A stretch of DNA of 64,000 nucleotides from Dokdonia sp. Dokd-P16 (GTDB taxonomy: Bacteria > Bacteroidota > Bacteroidia > Flavobacteriales > Flavobacteriaceae): assembly GCF_003095655.1 (NCBI RefSeq), contig NZ_CP029151.1, positions 1,425,001 through 1,489,000 on the forward strand, in the 5' to 3' direction. The notes beneath the pieces were generated by a model. It saw only the letters and a list, made by a program, of their open reading frames with translations, made no database searches and was not told the DNA's origin. Each line of letters starts with the position of its first letter. The stretch's first letter is position 1. This document shows, one piece after another, positions 1,507 through 62,125 of the stretch. Made by a program: the position numbers and the translations under genes.

Positions 1507-3738
1507 TTAAAATTCGTAACCTAGACTTATAAACCACTCACTACGTTTAACTTCTGGGCTATAGGTATATTTAAGTCGCAAAGGTCCAAGTAGCGTTTCA
1601 GAGCCATACCCTAGAGAATAACCAGAAAATGTAGCCGGTGGCAACCAGTTGTCTGGATTGTCAAAAATATCGTAACCCACATTTGCAAAGTTTGCCGAGA
1701 GGTTGAGGTGGTTTTTTGGGAAAACCTCAAAATCAACTTCAAATAGTGCTTTTACATAGCCATCTCCAGCAATACTTAAGTAATCATATCCTAAGAAGGG
1801 GACAATGTTATTTACTTTCTTTGCGCCATAACCTCCTAAGAAAAAGTCGAGAGAATTATTATCTGCTCCACCTACTTTAAAGCCTCCTGCCGCCTCAACA
1901 GTAGCGGTAAATACATTACCTATACTACCAGCATATTTAATACGTGCATTTGCAACCCCAAACTCTGTAAAATCATTATTATAATCTGATGAGGCTAGAA
2001 ATAAATCAAAGTCTGCATCAAAAAGAACTCCTGAGTTAGGAAAGTACTTATTATCTAGGGAATCATATTTTAATTGAGAGTATAGTCCTCCCAGGTTACT
2101 TCGTTCAAAAATAACAGCTGTTTCTTCCACATCTGTAGAGACCACAGTTTCCGTTTCTATATCCAAAAACTTGTGCTGTATACCTATGTCAAATGTAAAT
2201 TGCTTCGCTAGTAGTGTTTGTATATAAATCCTATTTGTTAAGTCTTGATAATTGAGACTCACCCTATTAATTCCATCTAGAGGTATACCGCGTAAATCTT
2301 CAATAAGACGAGCGCTTACGCCTTGTTCAAAAGAGGTATAAGAAGAGTTTACTCCCACACTCCAGTAAAAACCTTTATCAATGTAGTAATCAAAATCGTA
2401 TCTAATATTATCTCCTAGAATAAAATCTAGTGAGGCAATATCATTTTTAAAAAGGACTCTTTTTTTAGTAAAATTAATAAGTGCTGCCGTGCGAAAAAGA
2501 TCGTCATAATGTAACGCTAGGCGCAATGATTGGGTGCTACTAGATTCCTTAAGCTCAATATGAAGTACAAATTCATCATTTACCTTCTGCAGCCTGTGAC
2601 CTATTCTATTAAAGTTTTCGGTGGCTGTGAGGTTGTTGATGCCATTGTAAAAGTCATCATATGACACCGTTATTGGTGGTGTAAGTTTCAATTTTCCGAG
2701 AATGTAGGCTCTAGTATATTGCTCATTACCTGTAATGCTCACGGCGGCAATTTGTAATGAATCTTGTGGAGTGGGTTTTATACGCTTTCGCGAAAGCGGT
2801 TTTTGCCTCATTGCAACTTCCTTAAGTGCATCATACTGCTCCATTGCTTTTGTATTTCCTGTACCCATAATAACTTTTCCATCATTAAAGGAAACCACAG
2901 AGTAAGCATCAATAGATGGTCGTATGTAAATATCTGTTTGTGCGCGTTTTTCCTCCATCGCTTTCGCAGTGCGATAGTTGTTGATTTGCAATAACACCTC
3001 AGATGCAGATTTGAGATTGGATCTACCGCGTAGTGTATCTTGTACATCAACCCCAATAATGATATCCATTCCTTTTGCGCGCAACTCTTCTACAGGGTAG
3101 TTATTTGTAACGCCTCCATCTATAAGGAGTTTTCCGTTTATAAGTACGGGGCTAAAAAGTGAAGGTAGCGCTCCACTAGCTCCTAGTGCTTCTGGTAAGT
3201 ATCCTTTATCCAGAATAACCTGCTCTCCTTTTTCTACATCTGTAGCGATGCAGAAAAAAGGAATAGGGAGTTTACTAAAATCATTAATATTCGAAGTATG
3301 ATCGAGATTTTTAGCCAGTAAATTGTACGTGTTTTGCCCTTTACTTAAGGAGCTAGGAAGCGATAGTTTAAGGTGATCAAATGGTAGTGATACTACATAT
3401 CGCTCTGCATCATCACGCTCATAAGAGGTCTTTGCCTTACGAGGTAAGTTATCTTGAATGATGTTATTAAAATTTACAGAAGTAAAAATAGAATCTAACT
3501 CTGCCGCATTATATCCAGATGCGTATAATCCTCCTACTATAGCGCCCATGCTAGTACCTGCAATATAATCTATGCGTACACCAGCTTCTTCTATAACTTT
3601 AAGAACGCCTATGTGAGCAAAACCTTTTGCGCCACCACCACTAAGTACAAGACCTACTTTTACATCCTCCTTTTGTGCTTCTTGCGCAAATGTAGAGAAG
3701 CTTAATATTAAGGCTGTAATTAGTATGAAGTACTTCAT
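1507..3738 (-). CDS. Patatin-like phospholipase with C-terminal outer-membrane beta-barrel
   Basis: A 743-residue secreted lipolytic enzyme fused to a BamA/surface-antigen-like barrel, an arrangement like PlpD of Pseudomonas. A signal peptide ends near TFAQ (residue 19). The patatin domain spans about 26-225: glycine-rich oxyanion loop GGGAKG (34-39), nucleophile Ser63 in GTSMG, and catalytic Asp207 in DGG. Residues about 328-400 look POTRA-like (SITGNEQYTRAYILGKL). The rest is a beta-rich barrel ending in GYEF, with the terminal aromatic residue expected of an outer-membrane protein. The start codon overlaps the uvrC stop by 3 bases (ATGA), so the two are translationally coupled. A perfect genome palindrome at 2784-2797 is translated here as LSRK, between the patatin and POTRA-like parts. 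Confidence 0.9.
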   Translation of the reverse strand: MKYFILITALILSFSTFAQEAQKEDVKVGLVLSGGGAKGFAHIGVLKVIEEAGVRIDYIAGTSMGAIVGGLYASGYNAAELDSIFTSVNFNNIIQDNLPRKAKTSYERDDAERYVVSLPFDHLKLSLPSSLSKGQNTYNLLAKNLDHTSNINDFSKLPIPFFCIATDVEKGEQVILDKGYLPEALGASGALPSLFSPVLINGKLLIDGGVTNNYPVEELRAKGMDIIIGVDVQDTLRGRSNLKSASEVLLQINNYRTAKAMEEKRAQTDIYIRPSIDAYSVVSFNDGKVIMGTGNTKAMEQYDALKEVAMRQKPLSRKRIKPTPQDSLQIAAVSITGNEQYTRAYILGKLKLTPPITVSYDDFYNGINNLTATENFNRIGHRLQKVNDEFVLHIELKESSSTQSLRLALHYDDLFRTAALINFTKKRVLFKNDIASLDFILGDNIRYDFDYYIDKGFYWSVGVNSSYTSFEQGVSARLIEDLRGIPLDGINRVSLNYQDLTNRIYIQTLLAKQFTFDIGIQHKFLDIETETVVSTDVEETAVIFERSNLGGLYSQLKYDSLDNKYFPNSGVLFDADFDLFLASSDYNNDFTEFGVANARIKYAGSIGNVFTATVEAAGGFKVGGADNNSLDFFLGGYGAKKVNNIVPFLGYDYLSIAGDGYVKALFEVDFEVFPKNHLNLSANFANVGYDIFDNPDNWLPPATFSGYSLGYGSETLLGPLRLKYTYSPEVKRSEWFISLGYEF
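2784..2797. repeat. Genome palindrome copy 1 (GCTTTCGCGAAAGC), inside the patatin gene
   Basis: Perfect 14-bp palindrome, flanked by TAC and GG. It is read on the minus strand as LSRK in a linker of the patatin/barrel protein. Confidence 0.95.
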
Positions 3739-5531
3739 TCTTTAAGGTGGTAGTGATTATATATGATAGCTGCTTTTGATGGTCCTATTACCTCTGTGAG
3801 ACTCTTTTTACTTGCCACTTTTACTTTTGAAACAGAGCGGTAATGTTTTAATAAATCTACAATTGTTTTTTCACCTATACCACGTATAGCGTCAAGTTCT
3901 GTTCCTAGGGCTGCATTACTACGTTGATTACGGTGAAAGGTGATGCCAAAGCGGTGCGCCTCATTACGTAATTGTTGTATAATTTTAAGAGTCTCACTTT
4001 TTTTGTCGAGATATAATGGAATACTATCACCAGGGTAAAATAATTCTTCTAGACGTTTTGCAATACCTATAATTGCTATTTTGCCACGCAAGCCTAGGTC
4101 ATCTAGTGCCTTAACACCACTAGATAATTGACCCTTACCACCATCTACAATTATGAGTTGAGGTAGTGGTTGATCTTCGGCTAGTAGTCGTTTGTAACGT
4201 CTATAAACTACTTCTTCCATGCTCGCAAAATCATCTGGTCCTTCTACTGTTTTGATATTAAATTTACGATAATCACTCTTGCTAGCCTTTCCATTCTTAA
4301 AAACCACGCAAGCGGCTACAGGGTTTGAGCCTTGTATGTTTGAGTTATCAAAGCACTCTATATGTCTAGGCTCCTCACTCAATCTCAGGTCTGCCTTCAT
4401 TTGTGCCATGATGCGGTTAGTATGGCGGTCTGGATCTACTATTTTAGTTTGTTTAAAACGCTCCATCCTGTAATACTTTGCATTACGTTCAGAGAGTTCT
4501 AGTATACGTTTTTTGTCACCTAGTTTAGGCACGGTAATTTTATATTGATCACCTAGCTCTACTTCAAAGGGAACATAGATTTCCTTTGAGTTATGGTCAA
4601 AACGTTGCTGGATTTCAATAATACCCAGCTCTAGTAATTCTTTATCAGTTTCGTCTAGTTGCTTTTTGAGTTCTAGCGTATGACTTTTAATAATAGCACC
4701 GTGTGATATCTGTAAGAAGTTTACATACCCATAACCCTCATCGCTTATAATGGAGAATACATCAACATCGCTTATCTTAGGATTAACCACCGTACTTTTA
4801 GATTGGTACCCTTCAAGAATGTCAAGCTTTTCTTTAATGCGTTGTGCATCTTCAAATTCCATGGCAGCAGCGTGCTCCTTCATTTTTTCGCGAAAGCGAG
4901 CTAGAGAATCTTTAAAATCTCCTTTTACAATCTGGCGTATGTGTTCTATGTGTTCGTGATATTCTTTTTCTGACTGCTTGTCTTCACAAGGACCTTCACA
5001 GTTGCCTAGATGATATTCAAGGCACACTTTATACTTCCCAGCGTCTATCTTATCCTTAGAAAGATCATAATTACAAGTGCGAAGCTTATATAAACTTTTA
5101 ATCAAGTCTAGTAGCGTGCGCACTGTTTTCATACTCGTGTATGGACCATAATACTCGCTACCGTCTTTGATGAGTCTACGCGTAGGGAAAATCCTAGGGA
5201 AGCGTTCATTTTTTATACAGATCCAAGGGTAGCTTTTATCGTCCTTAAGTAAGACGTTGTACCGTGGCTGATATTCTTTTATAAGACTGTTTTCAAGAAG
5301 AAGCGCATCTGTCTCGGTCTCGACCACGATATGCTTCATCTCGTGAATCTTTTTAACCATAGTTCTAATACGACCGTTATCTAGGGTTTTATTAAAATAG
5401 GAAAGTACTCGTTTTTTTAAGTTCTTTGCTTTTCCTACGTAAAGCAGTTTTCCGTTTTTATCGTAGTATTGATATATTCCCGGACTTGTAGGAAGTGTTT
5501 TGAGTTGAAGTTCTATTGGAGCAGCAGGCAT
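3735..5531 (-). CDS. uvrC: Excinuclease ABC subunit C
   Basis: UvrC makes the two incisions around a DNA lesion in nucleotide excision repair, acting with UvrA and UvrB in the cytoplasm. The protein is 598 residues from the ATG at 5531, close to the family norm. Domain order: GIY-YIG nuclease at the N-terminus (SPGIYQYYD and LLYVGKAKNLKKR), a Cys-rich segment (CLEYHLGNCEGPC), a UVR motif around EFEDAQRIKEKL, an RNase H-like nuclease (ECFDNSNIQG, IIVDGGKGQL), and C-terminal helix-hairpin-helix motifs (LDAIRGIGEKT). The frame is open 33 codons further upstream to 5630, but that extension runs across the palindrome at 5561 and looks like non-coding DNA, so MPAAPIE is the chosen start. The stop overlaps the patatin gene. 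Confidence 0.95.
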   Translation of the reverse strand: MPAAPIELQLKTLPTSPGIYQYYDKNGKLLYVGKAKNLKKRVLSYFNKTLDNGRIRTMVKKIHEMKHIVVETETDALLLENSLIKEYQPRYNVLLKDDKSYPWICIKNERFPRIFPTRRLIKDGSEYYGPYTSMKTVRTLLDLIKSLYKLRTCNYDLSKDKIDAGKYKVCLEYHLGNCEGPCEDKQSEKEYHEHIEHIRQIVKGDFKDSLARFREKMKEHAAAMEFEDAQRIKEKLDILEGYQSKSTVVNPKISDVDVFSIISDEGYGYVNFLQISHGAIIKSHTLELKKQLDETDKELLELGIIEIQQRFDHNSKEIYVPFEVELGDQYKITVPKLGDKKRILELSERNAKYYRMERFKQTKIVDPDRHTNRIMAQMKADLRLSEEPRHIECFDNSNIQGSNPVAACVVFKNGKASKSDYRKFNIKTVEGPDDFASMEEVVYRRYKRLLAEDQPLPQLIIVDGGKGQLSSGVKALDDLGLRGKIAIIGIAKRLEELFYPGDSIPLYLDKKSETLKIIQQLRNEAHRFGITFHRNQRSNAALGTELDAIRGIGEKTIVDLLKHYRSVSKVKVASKKSLTEVIGPSKAAIIYNHYHLKE

Positions 5532-5560
5532 ACTCAAAGATAATATATGAGGCGGATTAC

Positions 5561-5574
5561 GCTTTCGCGAAAGC
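5561..5574. repeat. Genome palindrome copy 2, between uvrC and the RimK-operon protease
   Basis: Perfect GCTTTCGCGAAAGC, 29 bp upstream of the chosen uvrC start in the 102-bp divergent gap. Its left flank is TTAC. Confidence 0.95.
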
Positions 5575-5633
5575 ATAAAAAATCGCATTAAAATCTTTAT
5601 AAAGAAAGTACATATTTTATACCTTGCCATACT

Positions 5634-6927: not shown

Positions 6928-6933
6928 GAGATT

Positions 6934-8476: not shown

Positions 8477-8481
8477 AAAAT

Positions 8482-8505
8482 TATGAATATTATGGTATAT
8501 TCATA
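8482..8505. promoter_or_regulatory. Inverted repeat upstream of the PAS histidine kinase
   Basis: Two perfect 9-bp arms, TATGAATAT and ATATTCATA, are separated by 6 bp. The element starts 6 bp after the cyclo-ligase stop and ends 19 bp before the kinase ATG. It could be an operator or a weak RNA hairpin; no T-run follows, so it is not a good terminator. The role is inferred only from position. Confidence 0.4.
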
Positions 8506-8523
8506 GCTATATAACTTATAGTA

Positions 8524-10776: not shown

Positions 10777-11403
10777 TCACAACGATTTTACTATCGTGAT
10801 ATCACCATGTATACTTTGTAGTTTGAGAGTTGGTCCCAGAGTGATTTCTGGCGATATAACGATAGTACCGTTACGAGATTGTGCAGTAACATGTGCTTTA
10901 TCAATATCAAGTTCAATACTTCCAGAGATAGTGTTTATAGTTGCGCTTTCGCGAAAGCGGAATCCTTCTCCTTTAAAGTGTCCTCTTCCTAAATCCATGT
11001 GCACTTGCCCGAAGGCTCCATAGGTACCTACGCCTGCAAGTGTACTGTACACAGACACGTTTAGTCCCACAGGAACAGTTATTTCAAGCTCTATAGCCAT
11101 CACTTTATGCGCAGAGAGCTTATCATTAAAAGGTTCGTAATCTGGTGTTTTGCCCGTAGTGATCTTAAGTACATTACTTGCGATAGCAGTGTTTAACAAG
11201 GTAGACGCAAATATTTCTCCGTCTATAATGGTATGCACTGTAATTTGATCAGTATCTGCAGCAGTAATTGTAATCTCAAAAATCTCATTACTATTAATGT
11301 ATAACTCTTTTACACTCTCCGCATCGTATGTTTGAGACAAGCGTTTTTGTGCAACCACAGCCGTAGTAAGTAAGAAAAGTAATAAACAGAGAGATATCCT
11401 CAT
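10777..11403 (-). CDS. Secreted beta-helical/adhesin-like protein (DUF4097-like)
   Basis: A 208-residue exported protein with signal peptide MRISLCLLLFLLTTAVVAQ. The rest is beta-rich with repeated short turns such as INTISGSIELDI, AQSRNGTIVI and LQSIHGDITIV, the pattern seen in DUF4097-type putative adhesins. No catalytic residues stand out. The perfect palindrome at 10945-10958 is translated here as FRES. It lies 34 bp upstream of lspA on the same strand and may be co-transcribed with it. Function unknown. Confidence 0.6.
   Translation of the reverse strand: MRISLCLLLFLLTTAVVAQKRLSQTYDAESVKELYINSNEIFEITITAADTDQITVHTIIDGEIFASTLLNTAIASNVLKITTGKTPDYEPFNDKLSAHKVMAIELEITVPVGLNVSVYSTLAGVGTYGAFGQVHMDLGRGHFKGEGFRFRESATINTISGSIELDIDKAHVTAQSRNGTIVISPEITLGPTLKLQSIHGDITIVKSL
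10945..10958. repeat. Genome palindrome copy 3, inside the DUF4097-like gene
   Basis: Perfect GCTTTCGCGAAAGC, read on the minus strand as FRES within GFRFRESAT. Confidence 0.95.
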
Positions 11404-16691: not shown

Positions 16692-16705
16692 GCTTTCGCG
16701 AAAGC
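16692..16705. repeat. Genome palindrome copy 4, in the AhpD-like/OsmC divergent gap
   Basis: Perfect GCTTTCGCGAAAGC with a TTAC left flank, 32 bp upstream of the AhpD-like start and 60 bp upstream of osmC. Confidence 0.95.
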
Positions 16706-18764: not shown

Positions 18765-20458
18765 TGCGTTGGACTTTAAAACCAAAACCAGAAGCACAAA
18801 AAGTTACTAATCTTGCCAAAGAACTTGGAGTAGAGGAGCCTATTTCTCGTTTACTCATACAACGTGACATAGATACCTTTGAAAAGGCAAAACAATTTTT
18901 CCGTCCGTCTCTAGATGACTTGCATGATCCATTCTTAATGAAAGATATGGATGTCGCGGTAGCACGTATTGAACAAGCAATAGCTCAAGGCGAAAATATT
19001 CTTGTCTTTGGTGATTATGACGTAGATGGTACCACTAGTGTTGCTTTAATGAGCTCCTATCTCGATACGATCCATCCACAGGTGGCAACCTACATTCCAG
19101 ACCGTTATGCAGAGGGTTATGGCGTTTCTTATATGGGAATAGACTTTGCTGCAGATAATGATATGACACTCATTATCGCACTAGATTGTGGTGTAAAAGC
19201 TATTGAAAAGGTGGCTTATGCAAAAGAAAAAGGAATCGATTTCATTATTTGTGATCACCACAGACCAGGTGATCAGTTGCCAGATGCGGTCGCTATTTTA
19301 GATCCAAAAAGAGAAGATTGCTCATACCCTTATGATGAGTTATGCGGTTGTGGTGTAGGTTTTAAATTAATAAGTGCAATAGCGCTTTCGCGAAAGCAAA
19401 ACTTTGAAGAGCTTCTTCCTTACTTAGATCTTGTTGCTACTGCCATAGGTGCAGATATCGTACCTATTACAGGAGAAAATAGAATCCTTGCTTACCATGG
19501 ATTAAATGTGATAAACCAAGCGCCTCGAGCAGGTTTTGAAGCCATTATAAAGCAAGTTAAAAAGCAAACGCTTACCATCACAGATGTAGTTTTTATCATA
19601 GGACCGCGTATAAACGCCGCGGGAAGAATGGTACACGGTAACCATGCCGTAACCTTATTAAGGGAGACAAACCTTGATGCGGCCATCAAATTTGCATCAG
19701 AAATAGAGCAATATAACTCCGACCGAAAGGAAGCAGATAAGAGTATCACTCAGCAAGCCCTAGATCAAATTATAGAGAGCAAAGAAGAGGGAAATAAAAC
19801 TACCGTTGTTTTTCAAGAAGACTGGCATAAAGGAGTGATAGGGATTGTGGCTTCAAGATTAATAGAAACATATTACCGTCCTACCTTAGTGTTTACGAGA
19901 AGCGGTGATAAATATGCAGCCTCTGCAAGATCTGTAAAAGGTTTTGACGTGTATAACGCCTTGCATGAATGTGCTGAGCATATAGAGCAATTTGGTGGAC
20001 ATAAATATGCTGCCGGTCTCACATTATTACCAGAGCAATATGAAGCATTTAAGGAAAAGTTTGAACAGGTAGTTGCTGCTAGTTGTGATGAGCGCTTGCT
20101 AGTTCCAGAAATTGCCATTGACTCAGAGATAGACCTTGCAGATATTACGCCTAAATTTCACCGTATTTTAAAACAGTTTGCTCCATTTGGGCCTCAGAAT
20201 ATGTCACCTACATTTATGACTCAAAACCTAATAGACACAGGTTATGGTAAAAAAGTAGGAGCAGATCAAACACACTTAAAGGCCACTGTAATACAAAACA
20301 ATCGAGGGCAACGTATAGGATGTATTGGTTTTAATCTAGGAGATAAATACGAGCTCATTGAAGATAAAAAAATCTTTAAGGCCGCTTATTCCCTTGATGA
20401 AAATGAATGGAATGGAAATGTGAGTTTGCAGTTACGATTAAAAGATATTAAAACTTGA
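18764..20458 (+). CDS. recJ: Single-stranded-DNA-specific exonuclease RecJ
   Basis: RecJ digests single-stranded DNA 5' to 3' in recombination and mismatch repair. The 564 residues show the DHH-family order: motif I FGDYDVDGTTS (Asp84, Asp86, Asp88), IALDCGVKA, DHH at 164-166, then GCGVGFKL, the DHHA1 part with GHKYAAGLTL (GGxxxAAG-like), and a C-terminal OB fold (APFGPQNMSPTF). The start overlaps the upstream SPOR gene by one base. Palindrome copy 5 (19384-19397) is read as LSRK in a loop after the DHH block. A small hairpin spans the stop codon. Confidence 0.95.
   Translation: MRWTLKPKPEAQKVTNLAKELGVEEPISRLLIQRDIDTFEKAKQFFRPSLDDLHDPFLMKDMDVAVARIEQAIAQGENILVFGDYDVDGTTSVALMSSYLDTIHPQVATYIPDRYAEGYGVSYMGIDFAADNDMTLIIALDCGVKAIEKVAYAKEKGIDFIICDHHRPGDQLPDAVAILDPKREDCSYPYDELCGCGVGFKLISAIALSRKQNFEELLPYLDLVATAIGADIVPITGENRILAYHGLNVINQAPRAGFEAIIKQVKKQTLTITDVVFIIGPRINAAGRMVHGNHAVTLLRETNLDAAIKFASEIEQYNSDRKEADKSITQQALDQIIESKEEGNKTTVVFQEDWHKGVIGIVASRLIETYYRPTLVFTRSGDKYAASARSVKGFDVYNALHECAEHIEQFGGHKYAAGLTLLPEQYEAFKEKFEQVVAASCDERLLVPEIAIDSEIDLADITPKFHRILKQFAPFGPQNMSPTFMTQNLIDTGYGKKVGADQTHLKATVIQNNRGQRIGCIGFNLGDKYELIEDKKIFKAAYSLDENEWNGNVSLQLRLKDIKT
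19384..19397. repeat. Genome palindrome copy 5, inside recJ
   Basis: Perfect GCTTTCGCGAAAGC, read on the plus strand as LSRK in ALSRKQNF. Confidence 0.95.
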
Positions 20459-23113: not shown

Positions 23114-23127
23114 GCTTTCGCGAAAAT
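23114..23127. repeat. Diverged palindrome copy (12 of 14 bases) upstream of queD
   Basis: GCTTTCGCGAAA is intact and the last two bases are AT in place of GC. Confidence 0.7.
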
Positions 23128-24758: not shown

Positions 24759-25490
24759 ATGCATTTTTTAAGAAACATAGCGGTTGCTGTTTGGAAAGTA
24801 TGGTTTTACTTTTTAATGCTTGTGGTGATACTTATTTTATCTCCACTTCTCATTATAAGTATCCTCAAAGAAACGTGGTACGGAATGTTTTTCCGCCTAG
24901 CGCAAATATGGGCTCGTACGATTATGTTGCTCATGGGGTTATTTCCAAAGGTAAGTCGTGAAGAGAAGTTTGAGCGAGGCAAAGGGTATATGCTGGTGAG
25001 TAATCACACCTCTATGATGGATATTCTGTTAATGCTTCATCTTGCAAAAAGTCCTTTTGTATTTGTAGGTAAAGCAGAGCTGGCAAAGCTGCCATTGTTT
25101 GGGTTCTTTTATAAGCGCACTTGTATCTTAGTAGATAGAGGTAATGCGCGCAGTCGCAAGCAAGTATTTGATCAAGCGCAGCGACGCCTTAGTCAGGGTT
25201 TTAGTATCTGTATTTTTCCAGAAGGCGGCGTTCCTAACGATTTGGCACTAGTGCTAGATACTTTTAAAGATGGAGCTTTTAGACTCGCAATAGACCATCA
25301 TCTTCCTATAGTGCCTATTACCTTTTATGATAATAAGAAGCGATTTCCTTACTCATTTTTCAAAGGAATTCCTGGGGTAATGAGAGCAAAGGTGCATCAT
25401 TTTATTCCTACGATGGAGATGACGCAAGATGATAAGAGAGCTTTGAGAGAGCAAACACGCGAGGTTATCTTACGTGAATTAACTAAGTAG
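24759..25490 (+). CDS. plsC: 1-acyl-sn-glycerol-3-phosphate acyltransferase
   Basis: PlsC acylates lysophosphatidic acid to phosphatidic acid in the inner membrane. The 243-residue protein opens with two hydrophobic segments (about 5-40), then the acyltransferase motifs: NHTSMMD (HxxxxD) near residue 82, FVGKAELAKLPLFG, and FPEGG near residue 153. It is divergent from trpS. A putative -7 box ends 5 bases before the ATG, so the message may be leaderless. Palindrome copy 6 starts 9 bases after the stop. Confidence 0.92.
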   Translation: MHFLRNIAVAVWKVWFYFLMLVVILILSPLLIISILKETWYGMFFRLAQIWARTIMLLMGLFPKVSREEKFERGKGYMLVSNHTSMMDILLMLHLAKSPFVFVGKAELAKLPLFGFFYKRTCILVDRGNARSRKQVFDQAQRRLSQGFSICIFPEGGVPNDLALVLDTFKDGAFRLAIDHHLPIVPITFYDNKKRFPYSFFKGIPGVMRAKVHHFIPTMEMTQDDKRALREQTREVILRELTK

Positions 25491-25499: not shown

Positions 25500-25513
25500 G
25501 CTTTCGCGAAAGC
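25500..25513. repeat. Genome palindrome copy 6, after plsC
   Basis: Perfect GCTTTCGCGAAAGC, 9 bp after the plsC stop and 13 bp before a separate terminator hairpin. Confidence 0.95.
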
Positions 25514-27871: not shown

Positions 27872-28879
27872 TTACTCGTTAGATAATTTGATTGCTTCGT
27901 GAATTTTTGTTTCTAGCTCATCCATGAGGTCTGGATTATCTAGTAACAATGCTTTTACAGCATCACGACCTTGACCTAACTTAGTATCTTGATAGCTAAA
28001 CCATGATCCAGCTTTCTTTACAATCTCATAGTTTACACCTATGTCAATAATCTCTCCTACTTTTGAGATTCCTTCACCGTACATGATATCAAATTCTGCC
28101 ATACGGAAAGGTGGTGCAACTTTGTTTTTTACAACTTTAACACGGGTCTTATTACCCATTACATTTGCATTACTATCTTTAATCTGTGTAGAACGACGTA
28201 TGTCAAGACGTACAGATGCATAAAACTTAAGTGCATTACCACCAGTTGTAGTTTCTGGGTTTCCAAACATTACACCAATTTTCTCACGAAGTTGGTTAAT
28301 GAAAATCACAGTACAATTAGTCTTGCTAATGGATCCAGTAAGTTTACGAAGTGCTTGAGACATTAAACGAGCGTGAAGTCCCATTTTTGAATCTCCCATC
28401 TCACCTTCTATCTCACTTTTAGGAGTAAGTGCAGCAACAGAATCGACTACAACGATATCAATAGCTCCAGAGCGTATAAGGTTGTCTGCGATTTCAAGTG
28501 CTTGTTCTCCGTTATCTGGTTGTGATATGATCAAGTTATCAATATCCACACCTAGCTTTTCTGCATAGAAACGATCAAAAGCGTGCTCTGCGTCAATAAA
28601 TGCCGCAATTCCTCCAGCTTTCTGAGCTTGAGCGATGGCATGTAGCGTTAAGGTGGTTTTACCAGAAGATTCTGGTCCATAGATTTCAATCACACGACCT
28701 CTAGGATATCCTCCTACACCTAGAGCAACATCTAGCCCTAGAGAACCCGTTGGTATAGACTCTACATCCACGATAGCTTGATCTCCCATTTTCATCACGG
28801 CTCCTTTACCGTAAGTCTTGTCTAGCTTGTCTAGGGTGAGTTTAAGGGCTTTTAATTTTGCATCTTTTTCACTACTCAT
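27872..28879 (-). CDS. recA: RecA recombinase
   Basis: RecA forms filaments on single-stranded DNA, drives strand exchange and triggers SOS-type responses. The 335 residues show Walker [11 protein letters not shown] (about 67-76), Walker [12 protein letters not shown], the L1/L2 DNA-binding loops ([12 protein letters not shown] and [14 protein letters not shown]) and [14 protein letters not shown] candidate promoter lies at 28898-28928, and palindrome copy 7 sits 5 bp upstream of its -33 element. I saw no clear SOS box. Monocistronic, with its own terminator. Confidence 0.97.
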
Positions 28880-28897
28880 ATCTTCAGTTTTGTATTG

Positions 28898-28928
28898 TAA
28901 ATTTAATTGTTAAATAATGGGTAAACAA
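28898..28928 (-). promoter_or_regulatory. recA: Putative recA promoter
   Basis: Read on the minus strand, TTG (28928-28926) and TAAATTTA (28905-28898) are 20 bp apart, matching the Bacteroidota pattern with A for the final G. The recA ATG is 18 bp downstream of the -7 box. Confidence 0.5.
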
Positions 28929-28933
28929 GGTGC

Positions 28934-28947
28934 GCTTTCGCGAAAGC
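28934..28947. repeat. Genome palindrome copy 7, upstream of recA
   Basis: Perfect GCTTTCGCGAAAGC flanked by GC and GTAA, 55 bp before the recA start and 5 bp from the -33 element. Confidence 0.95.
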
Positions 28948-31941: not shown

Positions 31942-32410
31942 CGTATTACTATTGATACTCATTATTTTATGTGTTTCATGTGATTCAAAACAAGTGTATC
32001 ATTCATACACGTCGTTAGGTAGCTCATGGAATATTAATGAACCTGTGGTGTTAGAAGTAAACGAGCTGGATAGTGTACCATTGTATAATGCATTCATTAC
32101 CGTTCGTAATAACAATCAATACCCATACAGTAATCTTTTTTTGATTACAGAGATGCAATTTCCGCAAGGTCGTACGTATACCGATACCCTCGAGTATGAA
32201 ATGGCAAATCCAGACGGAACGTGGATGGGTACTGGTTTTGGAGATATTAAAGAAAGTAAATTGTTGTATAGAGAAGGAGTACGCTTTCGCGAAAGCGGAA
32301 CCTACACCTTTACTATAGAGCACGCAGTAAGAAAAAACGGAAACATCGCTGGAGATGCCTATCTAGAAGGAATTACCGAAGTAGGATTACGTATTGAAAA
32401 GCAAGAATAA
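31934..32410 (+). CDS. gldH: Gliding-motility lipoprotein GldH
   Basis: GldH is a lipoprotein needed for gliding motility and linked to type IX secretion in Flavobacterium. The chosen ATG gives a 158-residue protein with a clean lipoprotein signal (LLILIILCVSC, Cys16); an upstream open frame inside ricT is out of keeping with that signal. Family blocks include FITVRNNNQYPYSNLFL and GTYTFTIEHAVRKN. Palindrome copy 8 is translated as FRES just before the conserved GTYTF. The start overlaps the ricT end by 8 bp, and a penicillin-binding protein follows after 10 bp. Confidence 0.9.
   Translation: MRNVLLLILIILCVSCDSKQVYHSYTSLGSSWNINEPVVLEVNELDSVPLYNAFITVRNNNQYPYSNLFLITEMQFPQGRTYTDTLEYEMANPDGTWMGTGFGDIKESKLLYREGVRFRESGTYTFTIEHAVRKNGNIAGDAYLEGITEVGLRIEKQE
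32283..32296. repeat. Genome palindrome copy 8, inside gldH
   Basis: Perfect GCTTTCGCGAAAGC, read on the plus strand as FRES in VRFRESGTY. Confidence 0.95.
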
Positions 32411-34806: not shown

Positions 34807-34832
34807 GGATTCATTTTTAGATGTTCAATTAC

Positions 34833-34846
34833 GCTTTCGCGAAAGC
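34833..34846. repeat. Genome palindrome copy 9, upstream of scoA
   Basis: Perfect GCTTTCGCGAAAGC. Here the symmetry extends outwards on both sides (AATTAC left, GTAATT right), making a 26-bp dyad, the longest in the window. It ends 47 bp before the scoA ATG. Confidence 0.95.
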
Positions 34847-34893
34847 GTAATTTGATACAAAATCCGTATTTTTAGTACTTATAAACTAAGAAT

Positions 34894-37068: not shown

Positions 37069-38757
37069 TTACATTCCTTTTGGAATGGCATGAATAAGTC
37101 TTTGAGTATACTCCTTTTCTGGATGCTCATAAATATGATCTGCATCACCCATTTCTTCTATTTTACCTTTATTCATAATCACTAGCTGATCAGACATGTA
37201 TTTTACTACCGCAAGATCATGCGATATAAAAATGTAGGTAAAGCCAAAATCTTTCTTAAGTTCATTAAGTAAATTAAGTACTTGTGCTTGTACAGATATA
37301 TCTAGCGCACTTACAGACTCATCACAAATAATTAATTTAGGATTTACGGCAATAGTACGAGCAATCCCTATGCGTTGTCGCTGCCCCCCAGAAAACTCAT
37401 GAGGATAACGATCATAATGCGATGCTTCTAGACCCACTCGTTCTAACAATTCTAGCACGCGCTTTTTTCTCATAGCTTTAGAATCATAAAGTTTATGGAC
37501 TTCCATAGGCTCTATGATAGCCTGGCCTACAGTAAGCCTTGGATTGAGAGAGGCAAAGGGATCTTGAAAAATGATTTGTATTTCCTTTCTTAAACTTCTC
37601 AGTGCTGCTCCACGCATTTCATTAATAGCCATTCCTTTGTACAAAATGGTTCCTGCAGTCGCTTTATCTAATTGCAAGATGGCATTTCCCAGGGTAGATT
37701 TACCACAACCAGACTCGCCTACAAGACCTAAGGTTTCTCCTTCATAAATGGAAAATGAAACATCATCTACAGCTTTAAAGGCAATATCTTCAGCGAAGAT
37801 GCCGGCACTAGAAAAGTATGTTTTTTCTACATTAATAACCTCTAGTAAAGGTGGCTGTGCATACAGATTTTTTAGATGTTCGGCTCTTTCGGATGTTGTT
37901 TCGGCTTCAGATAGTGGTTTTTTATCTAGGTAATCTTTTATAGTGGGTAACATTTTAAGGCGCTCATCTAGAGACGGTCTCGCACTTAATAATGCTTTTG
38001 TGTACTCATGTTGTGGATTTGAAAATAACGCTTTCGCGAAAGCGTACTCAACAATATCTCCCTTGTACATTACAGCAACTCTGTCTGCTATCTCGCTTAC
38101 CAAGGAAAGGTCGTGAGAAATGAAAATAATACTCATCTGATTTTCTAACTGCAATTCCTTAAGTAATACTATAATCTCTTGCTGAACGGTAACATCTAGG
38201 GCAGTAGTGGGCTCATCTGCAATCAGGATTTTAGGTTTACAAGCGATAGCCATCGCAATCATTACGCGCTGTTTTTGACCTCCAGAAATCTCATGAGGAT
38301 AGGCGCTATAAATCTTCTCTACAGTAGGTAGTTTCACCTTTTCAAATAAGCGCAGCGTTTCTTCTTTGGCAGATTTTCGGTTGAGTGAAGTATGTTGTAA
38401 AAGAATTTCTACTACTTGCTCACCGCATCGCATTGACGGATTGAGACTACTCATAGGCTCTTGAAAAATCATGGAGATTTCATTACCTCGTATTTTCTGA
38501 AAATCCTTTTCTTTCGTTTCTAGCAATGATTGATTTTCAAAAACGATGGAGCCCTCAATAAGCGTATTTTTCTTAGGTAAAAGTCCTAGAATAGCAAGTG
38601 ATGACACACTCTTTCCGGATCCGGACTCACCCACAATGGCCAGAATTTCATTTTTATAAAGATCAAACGAAATATTATGTATTACTTCTTGTACTTCTCC
38701 TTGCTGTTTAAAGGATATAGATAGTTGGTTTACAGTAAGGATTTTTTGTGGCTGCAT
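37069..38757 (-). CDS. Peptide-type ABC transporter, two ATPase domains in one chain
   Basis: A 562-residue ATPase of the DppD-DppF/YejF kind, which powers uptake of oligopeptides or similar solutes through separate permeases. Two complete cassettes are present. First: Walker A GESGSGKS (about residue 39), signature SGGQKQRVMIA, Walker B LIADEPTTALD. Second (from about 308): Walker A GESGCGKST, signature SGGQRQRIGIA, Walker B IICDESVSALD with Ser-Val in place of Pro-Thr. Each carries the oligopeptide-type C-terminal extension. No permease or binding protein is nearby. Palindrome copy 10 is read as AFAKA between the cassettes. Confidence 0.93.
   Translation of the reverse strand: MQPQKILTVNQLSISFKQQGEVQEVIHNISFDLYKNEILAIVGESGSGKSVSSLAILGLLPKKNTLIEGSIVFENQSLLETKEKDFQKIRGNEISMIFQEPMSSLNPSMRCGEQVVEILLQHTSLNRKSAKEETLRLFEKVKLPTVEKIYSAYPHEISGGQKQRVMIAMAIACKPKILIADEPTTALDVTVQQEIIVLLKELQLENQMSIIFISHDLSLVSEIADRVAVMYKGDIVEYAFAKALFSNPQHEYTKALLSARPSLDERLKMLPTIKDYLDKKPLSEAETTSERAEHLKNLYAQPPLLEVINVEKTYFSSAGIFAEDIAFKAVDDVSFSIYEGETLGLVGESGCGKSTLGNAILQLDKATAGTILYKGMAINEMRGAALRSLRKEIQIIFQDPFASLNPRLTVGQAIIEPMEVHKLYDSKAMRKKRVLELLERVGLEASHYDRYPHEFSGGQRQRIGIARTIAVNPKLIICDESVSALDISVQAQVLNLLNELKKDFGFTYIFISHDLAVVKYMSDQLVIMNKGKIEEMGDADHIYEHPEKEYTQRLIHAIPKGM
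38030..38043. repeat. Genome palindrome copy 10, inside the ABC ATPase gene
   Basis: Perfect GCTTTCGCGAAAGC, read on the minus strand as AFAK in YAFAKALF. Confidence 0.95.
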
Positions 38758-43162: not shown

Positions 43163-43176
43163 GCTTTCGCGAAAGC
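43163..43176. repeat. Genome palindrome copy 11, between the M36 terminator and the GldL-like gene
   Basis: Perfect GCTTTCGCGAAAGC with TTAC and GTAC flanks, in a convergent gap. Confidence 0.95.
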
Positions 43177-44282: not shown

Positions 44283-44296
44283 GCTTTCGCGAAAGC
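44283..44296. repeat. Genome palindrome copy 12, after ogt
   Basis: Perfect GCTTTCGCGAAAGC, 19 bp downstream of the ogt stop and preceded by a run of T. Confidence 0.95.
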
Positions 44297-48308: not shown

Positions 48309-48322
48309 GCTTTCGCGAAAGC
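48309..48322. repeat. Genome palindrome copy 13, in the CNNM/HAD divergent gap
   Basis: Perfect GCTTTCGCGAAAGC with GTAATTAA on its right. After this copy no perfect one occurs for 10 kb. Confidence 0.95.
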
Positions 48323-50697: not shown

Positions 50698-53361
50698 TTG
50701 CTTAAAGAAGCCTTTCATTTCATATACCCGTGGCGCACCTATCAGGAGCGATTTTTAAAGGATTTTAAAAGTCATGCTTTAGATAATCATTTGCATGTAG
50801 TTGCACCTCCAGGGTCTGGTAAAACAGTGCTTGGGCTCGAGATGATGCGCCGTGTAAATGAGAAAACGCTTGTGCTTGCACCTACAATTACAATCAGAAA
50901 CCAGTGGGAACAACGTATGTTTGAGTGCTTTGTGAGCGAGGAAGATTGTACTATTCCGCTTTCGCGAAATATAAAAGAGCCTGCACACATCACTTTTGCA
51001 ACTTACCAATCATTACATGCTTTTTCAAAAAATGAAATGGAAGGTGATATGAGTCGGCTGGTAGCTTTTTTCGCGGAAGCGGGCATCAAACATATTGTAT
51101 TAGATGAAGCACATCACCTTAAAAACGAGTGGTGGAAACCACTTTTTGCCCTCAAAAAACTAGAGGGAACACTCACTGCGTTGACCGCCACACCACCTTA
51201 TGATAGTGAGCAACGAGAAATAGCCAAATATTTCCAATTATGCGGCCCGATAGATATTGAAATAAGCGTTCCAGAATTAGTAAGAGAAGGAAATCTATGC
51301 GCGCATCAAGATTACATTTATTTCTCCGAACCAGACGAAGCACAAATTCAATACATTCTCAAGTACCGAGTAAAATCAAAGGTTTTCATTGATTCGTTAG
51401 TAGAAAATGATAACTTTGGAACGTTCGTTTTAGAACATACTTTGTATACTTTGACAGATGGATTACTTGATCCTATCTATGAAAAACCAGATTTTTACGT
51501 TGCCATTCTCGTATATCTTCAAGCACGTGGTCATGAGATTCCAAAAGAGAAAATAGAGGTACTAGGAGTAGACACCGAGAAAGCTCAATTGCCACTTTTT
51601 AATCAAGAATGGGCAGAGCGATTATTACAACCTATACTCGTTACAGATAGAGAACTATTTATAGAAGACGAAGAGATGCTGCTGGATGTAGAAAAGCAGT
51701 TGCGTAGGGTAGGTGCCTTTGACAATAACCGGGTGAACTTTAAAGGAGAGCGCCAGCTTTATAAATCACTTGCGCAAAGTCCTAATAAGCTTAAAAGTAT
51801 TTGCGAGATTATAGATTTTGAATCCCAAGGAATGGGTGAAGATCTACGTGCAGTAATCCTCACGGATTATGTACGCAAGGAATTCTTAGAAAGCGTAAAC
51901 GATGATCTGGCAGATGTAAATAAACTTGGTGTTGTTCCAATTTTTCATCACCTGCGACATTCACTATCAAAAAAAACTGAAGATTTACACGGAGTAAGCA
52001 AATTAGAAAAACTAGCTGTTCTCACGGGTACACTTGTTATTGTGCATAAACGCTTAGAAAGCGAAATCATCAAAGTACTTTCTAATGATGATTATACCAT
52101 TACACCTCTTGATGGAACGGAGTTTATCATTGTAAAAACAAAGGAACGAGCAAAGAGCATTATTGTGAGTGTAATTACTCAGTTATTTACAGATGGTCAC
52201 ATACAAATTCTGGTAGGCACCGCTGCCTTGCTAGGAGAAGGATGGGATGCTCCCGCTATTAATACATTGGTACTTGGTTCCTACGTGAGTTCTTTTGTGA
52301 TGTCTAACCAGATGCGCGGTCGTGCGATACGCGTGCAATCTGGTAATCCAGATAAAGTAGCTTCTATCTGGCACCTTGCGTGTATAGATCCTACCATTGA
52401 TGGTGGTGGTGAAGATGTGGCAAAACTTGTAAAACGTTTTGACGCCTTTTGCGGAGTCTCTCTAGAAAATGATCCTTTTATAGAAAATGGCGCCGACCGG
52501 TTTGCACTGCCTACAACCACAATCAACAAGGAGACGATTAATGAAAAAATGCTCCAGCTAGCAGTAAACAGAAGCCATATTAAAGAGCGCTGGAATAAAG
52601 CTATAGGGACTGGAAAGCTACTTGTGCGAGAACTAAAGTTTGATTTTAGCCCAAGTAGCAAGAAGAAAGAAGCCGAAACGCAAAAGGTCTATTACAAAGA
52701 TGCTGTAAAATATAGTTTCTTGCAGCTAGGAGCTGTTATTACTATGACCATTCCAGAGGTGATAATTAATAATGTAGGAAGCTATTTTTCTAAAGGAATG
52801 CTGTTTTTTATATATGCCACCTTAGGTTCTATTGTGCTCGTACTGGCGCCCAAAACATATAAGGCTATCGTGAAGTACCTTAAATTTGGTCGTATCGATA
52901 AGCAAGTGTATAAAATGGGGCAAGTAGTATTAAAGTCACTGCGTGAGCAATTATTAATCACCACCCAACTACAGCAAATGAAGCTCGGCGTAGAGTATTT
53001 ACCTAATGGGGAGATTGCTTGTTTTCTCACAGGCGCCACCGCAAAGGAGGAAATACTTTTTGTAACCTGCCTGCAAGAACTTCTAGAACCCGTATATAAT
53101 GCACGCTATATGATTGAGCAGTCCGGTTGGTTTCAAGAGAAATTTGGACTTGCAAATTACTACAGCGTCCCGTCTATATTTACAGCCAGTAAGAAAGATG
53201 CTGCCTTGTTTTTCAAGTACTGGGAGATTTTTGTGAGTGATGACGCACGACTGACTTTTACAAGAACACGAGACGGCAGGAAGCAATTACTTAAAGCACG
53301 TTTTCATTACTTGAATACCGAGAATGGTCTTAAGACCAAGACTTGTGCTATCTGGAGGTAA
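50698..53361 (+). CDS. SF2 DEAD/DEAH helicase with C-terminal membrane segments
   Basis: An 887-residue superfamily 2 helicase. Motif I APPGSGKT (36-43), DEAH at 136-139, motif III TAT (163-165), and C-terminal motifs VGTAALLGEGWDAPAINTLVLGSY and QMRGRAIR. After the core (to about 590), residues about 672-722 form two hydrophobic stretches (FLQLGAVITM, then GMLFFIYATLGSIVLVLAP), followed by a 165-residue tail. A helicase with membrane helices is unusual. The first available start is TTG at 50698; no ATG lies between the upstream stop at 50665 and the Walker motif. Diverged palindromes occur at 50958 and 51067. Confidence 0.85.
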   Translation: MLKEAFHFIYPWRTYQERFLKDFKSHALDNHLHVVAPPGSGKTVLGLEMMRRVNEKTLVLAPTITIRNQWEQRMFECFVSEEDCTIPLSRNIKEPAHITFATYQSLHAFSKNEMEGDMSRLVAFFAEAGIKHIVLDEAHHLKNEWWKPLFALKKLEGTLTALTATPPYDSEQREIAKYFQLCGPIDIEISVPELVREGNLCAHQDYIYFSEPDEAQIQYILKYRVKSKVFIDSLVENDNFGTFVLEHTLYTLTDGLLDPIYEKPDFYVAILVYLQARGHEIPKEKIEVLGVDTEKAQLPLFNQEWAERLLQPILVTDRELFIEDEEMLLDVEKQLRRVGAFDNNRVNFKGERQLYKSLAQSPNKLKSICEIIDFESQGMGEDLRAVILTDYVRKEFLESVNDDLADVNKLGVVPIFHHLRHSLSKKTEDLHGVSKLEKLAVLTGTLVIVHKRLESEIIKVLSNDDYTITPLDGTEFIIVKTKERAKSIIVSVITQLFTDGHIQILVGTAALLGEGWDAPAINTLVLGSYVSSFVMSNQMRGRAIRVQSGNPDKVASIWHLACIDPTIDGGGEDVAKLVKRFDAFCGVSLENDPFIENGADRFALPTTTINKETINEKMLQLAVNRSHIKERWNKAIGTGKLLVRELKFDFSPSSKKKEAETQKVYYKDAVKYSFLQLGAVITMTIPEVIINNVGSYFSKGMLFFIYATLGSIVLVLAPKTYKAIVKYLKFGRIDKQVYKMGQVVLKSLREQLLITTQLQQMKLGVEYLPNGEIACFLTGATAKEEILFVTCLQELLEPVYNARYMIEQSGWFQEKFGLANYYSVPSIFTASKKDAALFFKYWEIFVSDDARLTFTRTRDGRKQLLKARFHYLNTENGLKTKTCAIWR

Positions 53362-53371: not shown

Positions 53372-53385
53372 GCTTTCGCGAAAAA
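53372..53385. repeat. Diverged palindrome copy (12 of 14) after the helicase gene
   Basis: GCTTTCGCGAAA is intact with AA in place of the final GC, 11 bp after the helicase stop. Confidence 0.7.
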
Positions 53386-55135: not shown

Positions 55136-55136
55136 A

Positions 55137-56492: not shown

Positions 56493-56557
56493 AACTAGAA
56501 ATTATAATCAAAAGTATTTGTTTTGCCCTCCATAGCCTGTTACATATGGTTAAATTA

Positions 56558-58071: not shown

Positions 58072-58083
58072 ATCTCTAGGTCT

Positions 58084-58149
58084 GTTCGAGCGCAGTCGAG
58101 AACTTAATTGTACTCTTATAATGAACCTCTCGACTGCGCTCGAGGGAAC
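58084..58149. repeat. REP-like inverted-repeat element between hemD and hemE
   Basis: Two 16-bp perfect arms (TCGAGCGCAGTCGAGA at 58086-58101, TCTCGACTGCGCTCGA at 58128-58143) with 26 bp between. The symmetry extends outwards to GTTC/GAAC-like ends. Each arm is itself a partial palindrome (TCGA...TCGA). It resembles repetitive extragenic elements known from flavobacterial genomes, but only this pair is in the window. Confidence 0.7.
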
Positions 58150-58171
58150 AATTTTATGTTTTTCTAGATAG

Positions 58172-58852
58172 TTAAGTTCTAGATTCTTCTTTCAATGTTT
58201 TCACCGCCTTTGCAATCGTGCTTTCTATGCTTGTTGCATCAGATACGATTACTTTTTTAAAGTGCAATCTTGCCGTTGTGGCAGTGGTCTCACCTATGCA
58301 AAACGCTATACTGTCTATTGCTGGTGTGTTTTTGTTCGCTTTCGCGAAAGCGTTAACACCACTCGGACTAAAAAATAATATACCATCAAATGTACGGTCA
58401 AAAGACTGTGTTATTTGATGTGTTTCATAAACCACTACTTCTTTACACGCTACATTATTTTCTTTGAGTAATGTAGGTAACTCATCTCTGCGCTGTCTCC
58501 CGCAGAAGTAAGTGAACGATTCGATTTTATGGTTTTCGACTATAAAACGAGCCAATTCTTCTCCATTTTGCGCTGTTTTTGTCACTTTTATGCCATTTTC
58601 GACTAAAAGCGCTGTTGTTTTTTCGCCAACAGCAAAACAACTTTTTATACTTTCTAATTGCTCACTAGAAAGATTATTAAGTAAAGCGCGTGCTCCATTT
58701 TGACTAGTGATGATTACTTTTTTATGCTTTCGCGAAAGCGTAAAAGCAACCTCTTGTGTGCGTATCGCATCATATTCCACAAATTGTAAACCTGCATTGA
58801 GAAGTAGCTCTCGTTGGTTAGGCTTTAATTTTTTTGTGAATAGTACGGTCAT
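58172..58852 (-). CDS. hemD: Uroporphyrinogen-III synthase
   Basis: HemD closes and flips ring D of hydroxymethylbilane to give uroporphyrinogen III. The 226-residue protein belongs to a poorly conserved family; it is recognised by [44 protein letters not shown]-like and FSPSGVNAF blocks and by its place in a hem operon. It overlaps hemC by 4 bp. Two perfect genome palindromes are inside the gene, read as LSRK (39-42) and AFAK, only 388 bp apart. Confidence 0.88.
58338..58351. repeat. Genome palindrome copy 14, inside hemD
   Basis: Perfect GCTTTCGCGAAAGC, read on the minus strand as AFAK in NAFAKANK. Confidence 0.95.
58726..58739. repeat. Genome palindrome copy 15, inside hemD
   Basis: Perfect GCTTTCGCGAAAGC, read on the minus strand as LSRK in TLSRKHKK. 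Second copy in the same gene. Confidence 0.95.
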
Positions 58853-61000: not shown

Positions 61001-61210
61001 ATATTCATTTCCTCTGATACTATCAGGGACGCAAAAGTAATAGTCACTTTCTTAAAAAAATAACGCTAGCGGTATCATTTATATCGTACAAGGTGTAAAA
61101 TGAACGATAGAAGGCGTAATTTTACATGAAGCACAGTGTTTACGGTAAAGTACACGCACTTGCTATTTCATTTATTTAGAGTGATTCTAAATAAAAAAAT
61201 AACTTTTGTT

Positions 61211-62101
61211 ATGGATGTATCACAAAAAAACAACGCTGAAAGCCTAACTAATGAAACTCTCATAGAAGATGGCTTTTTTATATTAAGATTTGATAACGAA
61301 TCTGCTCAAAAACAGCAAGTTGAGCGTACGGTAAATAGTAGTTACATTCAGTTTCACTTTTGCTTAAAAGGTGCAGCTATTTTTAATTTTAATGATGGCG
61401 CTTATCAACTACCTATACAAGAAGAAAACTCACTATTACTCTATAATCCTCAGCGAGATTTACCTATGAATTTAGAGCTAGCACCAGAAACTTGGGTCGT
61501 TACACTCTTAATGTCTATTAAAAAGTTTCACAACTTATTTTCAAATGAGGCGAGTTTCATTCACTTTTTGAGTGATGAAAATAAAGATCGTAAATACTAT
61601 AAAGACGGTAGTATTTCTCCCAGTATGGCAATTGTGCTTAATCAGTTAATGAATTACAGTCTCCATCCTTCTATCCAGAAACTATATTTTAAGGGAAAGG
61701 CTTATGAGCTGCTTAGTCTATATTTTAATCGTCCAGCAGATGCAGATATTGAGCAATGTCCTTTCCTTGTAGATGAAGATAATGTGCAAAAAATAAAACG
61801 TGCTAAGCAAATTATCATTGCGAGAATGGACGCACCACCCACTCTAAGCGAACTATCAGATGAAATAGGCTTATCACTTAATAAACTTAAGGAAGGCTTC
61901 AAGCAGATTTATGGAGATTCTGTGTTTAGTTTTCTGTTTGACTATAAGATGGAAGTTGCGCGCCAGTTGCTGGAGACAGGCTCTCACAATGTGAACGAAG
62001 TAGGGCTAAAGGTAGGCTATAGCACAGCAAGTCACTTTATTACGGCATTCAAGAAGAAATTTGGTACTACGCCAAAGAAATATTTAATGAGCTTAGGGTA
62101 A
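61211..62101 (+). CDS. AraC-family transcriptional regulator
   Basis: A 296-residue AraC-type regulator. The ATG at 61211 (MDVSQKNN) is preferred; an upstream in-frame ATG (61136) adds a poorly conserved stretch. The N-terminal cupin-like sensor covers about 15-180 (IQFHFCLKGAAIFNF, NPQRDLPMN). The C-terminal double helix-turn-helix is at about 205-296: PPTLSELSDEIGLSLNKLKEGFKQIYG, then VNEVGLKVGYSTASHFITAFKKKFGTTPKKY. It is between hemA (divergent) and hemH (downstream), so heme genes are the natural targets (inference). Palindrome copy 16 starts 10 bp after the stop. Confidence 0.93.
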   Translation: MDVSQKNNAESLTNETLIEDGFFILRFDNESAQKQQVERTVNSSYIQFHFCLKGAAIFNFNDGAYQLPIQEENSLLLYNPQRDLPMNLELAPETWVVTLLMSIKKFHNLFSNEASFIHFLSDENKDRKYYKDGSISPSMAIVLNQLMNYSLHPSIQKLYFKGKAYELLSLYFNRPADADIEQCPFLVDEDNVQKIKRAKQIIIARMDAPPTLSELSDEIGLSLNKLKEGFKQIYGDSVFSFLFDYKMEVARQLLETGSHNVNEVGLKVGYSTASHFITAFKKKFGTTPKKYLMSLG

Positions 62102-62111
62102 AAGTTATCAC

Positions 62112-62125
62112 GCTTTCGCGAAAGC
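62112..62125. repeat. Genome palindrome copy 16, between the AraC gene and hemH
   Basis: Perfect GCTTTCGCGAAAGC, 10 bp after the AraC-type stop and 97 bp before the hemH start. Confidence 0.95.

Follow-up and report, generated by a model that had tools for sequence, protein, structure and literature searches.

To our knowledge very few long exact words that recur throughout a genome have been described, and the function of one of them, HIP1 of cyanobacteria, is still open. Among shorter or rarer sites, Chi is short and polar, and the site-specific chromosome organisers (Noc, SlmA, MatP and ParB) have tens of sites, biased to the replication origin (ori) or terminus (ter). The uptake signal sequences (USS) of Pasteurellaceae and the DNA uptake sequences (DUS) of Neisseriaceae are clade-limited exact words with a sharp mismatch spectrum (parts of PMC1939737). 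Portions of PMC6776037 report that phages lysogenising Pasteurellaceae accumulate uptake signals, that large likely-lytic phages are poor in them, and that their density is higher in core genes. HIP1 (GCGATCGC) is a highly iterated palindrome, for which sections of PMC4390886 propose a ratchet and tie HIP words to methyltransferases. Here we describe a 14-bp palindrome, GCTTTCGCGAAAGC, in a window of 64,000 nucleotides (G000:C1:1425001-1489000) from the single-contig genome of Dokdonia sp. Dokd-P16 (G000; 3,623,447 bp), where a first-pass annotation had noticed its repetition. We tentatively propose, on the pattern of its occurrence, that the palindrome may be a DNA uptake (self-recognition) signal for natural transformation; this reading best matches an exact clade-limited word with even kilobase-scale spacing, positions that change while the word does not, a number of copies that does not follow genome size, and presence in some phages.

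All 16 perfect copies listed earlier for the window were recovered at exactly the positions given, and 100 dinucleotide shuffles gave 0 matches. With a GC content of 38.2%, the window has a third-order Markov expectation of 1.5e-4 copies per 64 kb; the earlier rough estimate was fewer than 0.001 at about 38% GC. In the whole genome (3.62 Mb) we counted 808 copies, or one per 4.5 kb, against 0 for the reversed pattern, and each of the 18 searched genomes of the genus (g1, taken as Dokdonia) held 369-905 perfect copies; the abundance therefore neither falls to a Markov expectation nor is confined to this region. In a sample of the family (299 genomes, 236 genera) five genomes were rich, namely G000 (808), G206 (857), G010 (578), G242 (664) and G190 (408), all belonging to g1, g11 (taken as Nonlabens) or a third genus, g191, and 56 others had 1-19 copies and 238 none. 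A sample of the phylum (395 genomes, G000 included) gave a match in 22, with at most 6 copies in any genome but G000. Words of the motif head the list of 10-mers in samples of all three genera, the GC content of which ranged from 0.36 to 0.46, and among named contigs a 24-mer extension of the motif matched 12 stretches (6 from Nonlabens, 4 from Dokdonia, 1 from strain BBFL7 and 1 from a Flavobacteriaceae metagenome-assembled genome). When such contigs were compared with about a quarter of G000, the Dokdonia contigs L215 and L221 matched at 94% (3,495 of 7,665 bases) and 80.6% (7,919 of 8,000), L219, also labelled Dokdonia, at 67.9% over 1,958 bases and a fourth, L212, nowhere; Nonlabens contigs either matched at 66-72% or gave no match. 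On this comparison g1 is taken as Dokdonia. The word is looser in g191, with 60 perfect copies and 78 cores in 455 kb, and its flank preferences are weaker. Whether other genera carry the motif in decayed or relaxed form was also considered. Counts with two mismatches exceeded the control in some non-carriers (69 versus 8 in G042, 86 versus 20 in G144), and the relaxed pattern GCTTYCGCGRAAGC was slightly above control in many genera. The idea was rejected because 19 of 20 sampled relaxed matches (L278-L297) are in frame for Ala-Ser/Phe-Ala-Glu/Lys-Ala and because no motif word is among the top 8- and 10-mers in 60-140 kb of four such genomes.

For the analysis of site structure and spacing, forty 20-kb stretches (800 kb, 181 copies) were combined with the window; together they hold 197 sites and cover 864 kb (24% of the genome). 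The mismatch spectrum of this sample is sharp: 197 perfect copies, 23 with one mismatch and 52 with two. With both strands pooled, C is found in 84% of sites at position -1, A in 66% at -2, T in 71% at -3 and T in 62% at -4, forming TTAC/GTAA shoulders. From -5 to -19, C drops to 3-11%, compared with 15-19% in 10-nt blocks farther out, and G and T are raised; the 3' side mirrors this, being poor in G, and the flank signal is present both within genes and between them. The full site is thus longer than 14 bp and consists of the core, the shoulders and about 19 nt of biased flank on each side, a footprint of about 52 bp; beyond these no sequence common to the 197 sites was found. The claim that most copies in the window extend to TAC...GTA did not stand, since TAC was present on the left at 6 of 16 copies, GTA on the right at 6 of 16 and both at only 2 of 16 (43 of 197 in the larger sample), and the reported 26-bp dyad at 34827-34852 is correct. 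Pairing between positions -i and +i of the flanks (1-19) equals the expectation from base frequencies, the largest deviation (z -2.2) being towards fewer pairs, indicating that there is no extended stem; a hairpin or cruciform was rejected on this absence of covariation. The site therefore looks like one that is read by a protein as DNA. The core TTTCGCGAAA occurs 254 times in the 864 kb, always with at least one GC arm: 197 cores have both arms and 57 have one. These 57 non-palindromic relatives, four of them in the window, were missing from the earlier list of copies. An alignment was possible for 56 of the one-arm sites, and these share a continuation of their own, approximately GCTTTCGCGAAA-ATGTGA, which suggests that the reader may tolerate a second type of half-site; we infer that the predicted reader is a dimeric protein for which one strong half-site is obligatory.

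The sites are spaced more evenly than random. In the sample 13 neighbouring pairs lay less than 1 kb apart against 37.7 expected, and none of 5000 simulations was as low (minimum 21). In G299 the first 100 sites included 4 such pairs against 22.9 expected, with a coefficient of variation (CV) of 0.74; the first 100 sites of G000 gave 6 against 18.4 expected and a CV of 1.07, a value that long gaps bring into the range of random placement. Across 41 stretches covering 24% of the genome, density showed no gradient away from the GC-skew minimum (Spearman 0.10, p 0.53), with 4.6 copies per 20 kb near it, 4.4 at middle distance and 4.6 far from it. A local repeat was rejected on the spread of copies around the chromosome. 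Two of the 40 sampled 20-kb stretches had no copy. One gap (G000:C1:82016-118849) is free of sites over 36.8 kb and is perhaps a recent island; its sampled part, L052 (90001-110000), is AT-rich (GC 0.33), with a Pfam family in only 2 of its 8 large open reading frames (ORFs). Among the stretches of low GC (below 0.35), L052 has 0 copies and three others have 2, 4 and 7. Near contig ends, L051 (6279-15911) and L090 (16509-19675) carry a 3210-aa ORF and ORFs for Ig-like/DUF11 surface proteins, and these stretches are almost without sites.

Copy number did not rise with genome size. By hand calculation and with kinship ignored, the nine g1 genomes of at most 3.7 Mb (at least 90% complete) averaged 779 copies, or 238 per Mb, and the four of 4.3-5.5 Mb averaged 794 copies, or 163 per Mb, as though the DNA added in the larger genomes carried no sites and copy number did not depend on genome size. 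By a crude ORF call, 114 of the 197 sites lie in ORFs and 83 (42%) are intergenic, with non-coding DNA making up 12% of the sample. The classes of gene orientation around intergenic sites follow the background, neither convergent nor divergent pairs being favoured, and in-gene sites occupy all three frames (56, 28 and 30; frame 0 encodes Ala-Phe-Ala-Lys-Ala). The earlier description of a genome-wide palindrome free of ties to gene orientation, and distinct from ordinary operators or terminators, agrees with these counts.

We then compared the window sites with the aligned places in relatives (Table 1). They were intact at 16 of 16 places in G301 (94% identity), 15 of 15 in G302 (88%), 15 of 16 in G313 (79%), 13 of 14 in G299 (80%) and 10 of 13 in G304 (76%), against a background of identical 14-mers near the sites of 0.58, 0.30, 0.14, 0.13 and 0.01, respectively. 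In farther relatives the intact sites numbered 6 of 8 (G312), 4 of 10 (G314), 6 of 8 (G306), 2 of 3 (G206), 1 of 2 (G190) and 1 of 1 (G242). Intergenic alignments can be anchored by the motif itself. When the flanks were required to lie in one alignment block, the values became 5 of 7, 3 of 9, 5 of 7, 2 of 3, 1 of 2 and 1 of 1. Against g191, 26 in-gene sites were aligned by protein and the motif was at the same place in 2, with a few others partial. As judged from these alignments, sites keep their places within the genus, and between genera the places change with the word unchanged, so that density rather than the single locus is seemingly maintained. By the same comparison copy 10 is ancestral and was lost in some relatives.

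The motif was also found on mobile DNA. Motif-bearing viral contigs include some with portal, capsid, tape-measure and terminase genes, and following two viral proteins led to two phage groups of 6 and 4 loci, all ten of which carry 1-3 perfect sites. Only four of these loci (L326-L329), reached by protein, are independent of the motif search, since the other six came from motif-selected contigs. Several phage sites are at shared positions despite differing tape-measure proteins (73% identity), and the two groups, similar in gene order, may be related to each other. Integrases are encoded by at least two contigs: a tyrosine integrase by L377, which belongs to one of the two groups, and a serine recombinase by L203, another contig with the motif. 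Isolated phages akin to these contigs matched at below 60% identity only. Neither of the Nonlabens phages P12024S (whole record) and P12024L (35,000 of 35,652 bases) contained a site, and no integrase is annotated in the part examined. A BLAST search with 31 nt spanning the 26-bp dyad as query, which is blind to the bare 14-mer, returned 8 plasmid and 5 phage records with E values up to 10, none of them convincing, and among the viral matches listed 76 of 133 sites were in loci of GC 0.47 or more and are likely due to chance. The low counts in other genera are often clustered, and stretches of at least eight such genomes (G078, G087, G215, G201, G101, G012, G111 and G175, holding at most 6 copies each) align to one island (L031, L032-L035, L037-L045 and L050). 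Its translations, judged by eye, include metal-efflux, P-type ATPase and multicopper-oxidase genes, so that it looks like a copper/heavy-metal-resistance island. The island carries intact copies in spite of the low totals of these genomes, which suggests its export from motif-bearing hosts. Its sites were retained, for example, in 24 of 46 pairwise comparisons (non-independent) at 75-80% identity, against a background of 0.06; because they are kept above background, the island has probably diverged mostly in such hosts.

Proteins that might read the site were then sought among carriers and non-carriers. Exactly one ParB was present in 10 of 10 carriers tested, as in most other genomes, and no extra ParB-type protein was found. 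A cytosine-C5 methyltransferase was absent from 8 of 13 carriers, this genome included, so that C5 methylation is not the general reader. ComEC, the transformation channel, was present in 13 of 13 carriers. Neither an extra ParB, nor the C5 methyltransferase, nor a type IV pilin fits the distribution of carriers. Of the readers offered by the first-pass annotation, an uptake sequence survives best; nucleoid occlusion and segregation are weakened by the flat ori/ter profile and the single ParB, and C5 methylation falls away as a general reader.

Under the uptake proposal, the palindrome would be the core of a protein-read DNA site marking DNA as 'own': a surface receptor of the competent cell would bind the symmetric site, DNA of close kin would be preferentially taken up through this receptor, and mutated copies would be rewritten by recombination with incoming perfect copies. 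Such rewriting of broken copies would keep the word sharp and hold its copies at a ceiling of about one per few kb. The motif resembles USS and DUS in being an exact word limited to a clade, with a sharp mismatch spectrum. USS are also present in lysogenising phages and scarce in likely-lytic ones, a contrast with which the few and mostly motif-selected phage groups seen here agree so far. Unlike these signals the motif is palindromic, at least 14 bp long, with symmetric flanks and in another phylum. Several findings weigh against the proposal. The uptake signals known to us, DUS and USS, are not palindromic. ComEC does not discriminate, as all 16 non-carriers tested have it too (16 of 16). 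The type IV pilin N-terminus (PF07963), a short profile that can miss divergent pilins, was found in only 3 of 13 carriers and in 2 of the 17 other genomes, which gives no indication of a ComP-like receptor. Evidence from phages is thin, with few groups, mostly motif-selected and possibly interrelated; the 6 proteins scanned in the L174/L325 group include no integrase, and 0 of 47 relatives of motif contig L111 (by portal protein, 41-71% identity) carry the site. A literature search on the motif and related terms, with subscription papers outside its reach, gave no report of the motif; its 10-mer core does occur in the literature, in papers none of which by title is on this subject. Finally, a word that is evenly spaced, sharp and restricted to a clade would also be compatible with a chromosome-organising protein.

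Such a protein is the main and a serious rival, though on balance we consider it rather unlikely. An abundant dimeric protein of the three genera, nucleoid-associated or condensin-related, would bind about 1000 even sites and fold or anchor the chromosome, resident prophages carrying sites as parts of it. Symmetric half-sites without flank pairing, the footprint of about 52 bp, even spacing with no ori/ter gradient, near-complete retention among close relatives and the lack of sites in the two Nonlabens phages without annotated integrase all agree with this. The motif is also like the Noc, SlmA, MatP and parS families in being a palindromic chromosomal site, with reading by a protein predicted here, and its TTTC/GAAA halves resemble parS and Noc sites. 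The half-site spacing of these families differs from that of the motif, however, which has far more copies than these families are known to have and lacks both their ori or ter bias and an additional ParB paralogue. In addition, no candidate protein was found, and the extra DNA of larger genomes seems site-free though it too would need folding. A word of the HIP1 type, maintained by an orphan DNA methyltransferase and methylation-guided repair bias and having no selected function, is improbable. The motif is like HIP1 only as an iterated palindrome present in coding and intergenic DNA: GCTTTCGCGAAAGC is unrelated to GCGATCGC, longer, without GATC and with extended flank preferences, and carriers have no general C5 methyltransferase. 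A ratchet acting base by base is expected to leave many one-off copies, against the 23 seen beside 197 perfect ones, and 14 fixed bases with flanks of about 19 nt exceed any methyltransferase site known to us.

Recombination control by a Chi-like site, recognised by a helicase-nuclease from either direction, seems very improbable. It would account for the G/T-rich, C-poor 5' flanks on both strands, as a C-poor, G/T-rich strand leading to the centre from each side would be a good 3' tail for RecA, and for one site per 4.5 kb, Chi and KOPS likewise being spaced around the chromosome on the kilobase scale; the copies near recA and in recJ and uvrC are also in its favour. Unlike Chi and KOPS, however, the motif is palindromic and much longer. 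Its directional variants are unbiased, as 26 of the 57 one-arm sites fall on what is taken for the leading strand, with the origin placed provisionally by GC skew. Nor would such a control site explain why the motif is limited to three genera. Least credible of all is a mobile or transcribed repeat, such as a relic of a repetitive extragenic palindromic (REP) element or a miniature inverted-repeat transposable element (MITE), a terminator hairpin or an operator. Only the intergenic excess speaks for it, against the 58% of sites in ORFs, the absence of a convergent or divergent excess, of flank covariation and of shared sequence past the core, shoulders and flank composition, and the lack of clean insertions at lost or gained sites in the alignments, with one possible case in G304.

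The window copies are listed in Table 1 together with the single-arm sites and one copy carrying a substitution in this genome. Among the repair genes of the window, recA has a copy upstream (27872-28947 region), and copies are also found within the recJ and uvrC ORFs.

Table 1. Copies of the palindrome and related sites in the window, with their state at the aligned place in relatives.
Feature	Position	Strand	Context	Intact in	Other states
Copy 1	2784..2797		inside patatin/Omp85 ORF	G301, G302, G313, G299, G312	1 mismatch G314; absent G304
Copy 2	5561..5574		in uvrC ORF	G301, G302, G313, G299, G304	
Copy 3	10945..10958		in ORF 10777-11403 (without Pfam family)	G301, G302, G313, G299, G304	
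Copy 4	16692..16705		between ORFs	G301, G302, G313, G299	unaligned G304; absent G314
Copy 5	19384..19397		in recJ ORF	G301, G302, G313, G299, G304, G312, G314, G306	
Copy 6	25500..25513		shortly after stop of ORF 24759-25490	G301, G302, G313, G299, G304	absent G312, G314
Copy 7	28934..28947		about 55 bp upstream of recA ORF (27872-28879, -)	G301, G302, G313, G299, G304, G312, G314, G306	
Copy 8	32283..32296		in gldH ORF; most widely kept	G301, G302, G313, G299, G304, G312, G314, G306, G206, G190, G242	
Copy 9	34833..34846		centre of 26-bp dyad	G301, G302, G313, G299, G312	not intact G304; 1 mismatch G314
Copy 10	38030..38043		in ABC-transporter ORF	G301, G302, G306, G206	1 mismatch G190; absent G313, G299, G304, G312, G314
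Copy 11	43163..43176		between ORFs	G301, G302, G313, G299, G304	absent G206
Copy 12	44283..44296		between ORFs	G301, G313	unaligned G302, G299, G304
Copy 13	48309..48322		between ORFs	G301, G302, G313	unaligned G299, G304
Copy 14	58338..58351		in hemD ORF	G301, G302, G313, G299, G304, G306	
Copy 15	58726..58739		in hemD ORF	G301, G302, G313, G299	unaligned G304; absent G314, G306
Copy 16	62112..62125		shortly after stop of ORF 61136-62101	G301, G302, G313, G299, G304 (several with diverged flanks)	absent G306
Single-arm site (GCTTTCGCGAAA without second GC)	23114..23125	+			
Single-arm site	50958..50969	+			
Single-arm site	53372..53383	+			
Single-arm site	4886..4897	-			
Copy with one substitution in this genome	56614..56627			perfect 14-mer at aligned place in G301, G302, G313, G299	

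The motif is longer than HIP1, perfectly symmetric and clade-limited, and can be tested in cultured marine bacteria. In its fullest form, which is more doubtful than the uptake proposal alone, our reading would be that of a palindromic uptake signal of Bacteroidota, shared by three genera and recognised over about 52 bp by a symmetric receptor unrelated to ComP, which may tag prophages and outgoing resistance islands and could be used for tracing mobile DNA. If the motif is an uptake signal, it would open the study of sequence-specific natural transformation in Bacteroidota, of which none has been described as far as the literature search showed; if it is a chromosome-organising site, it would represent a class in which the sites number about a thousand. 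In both cases the motif is usable for tracing provenance: viral contigs with copies point to phages that once lived in these hosts (host inferred), and copies in some other genera mark the shared resistance-like island.

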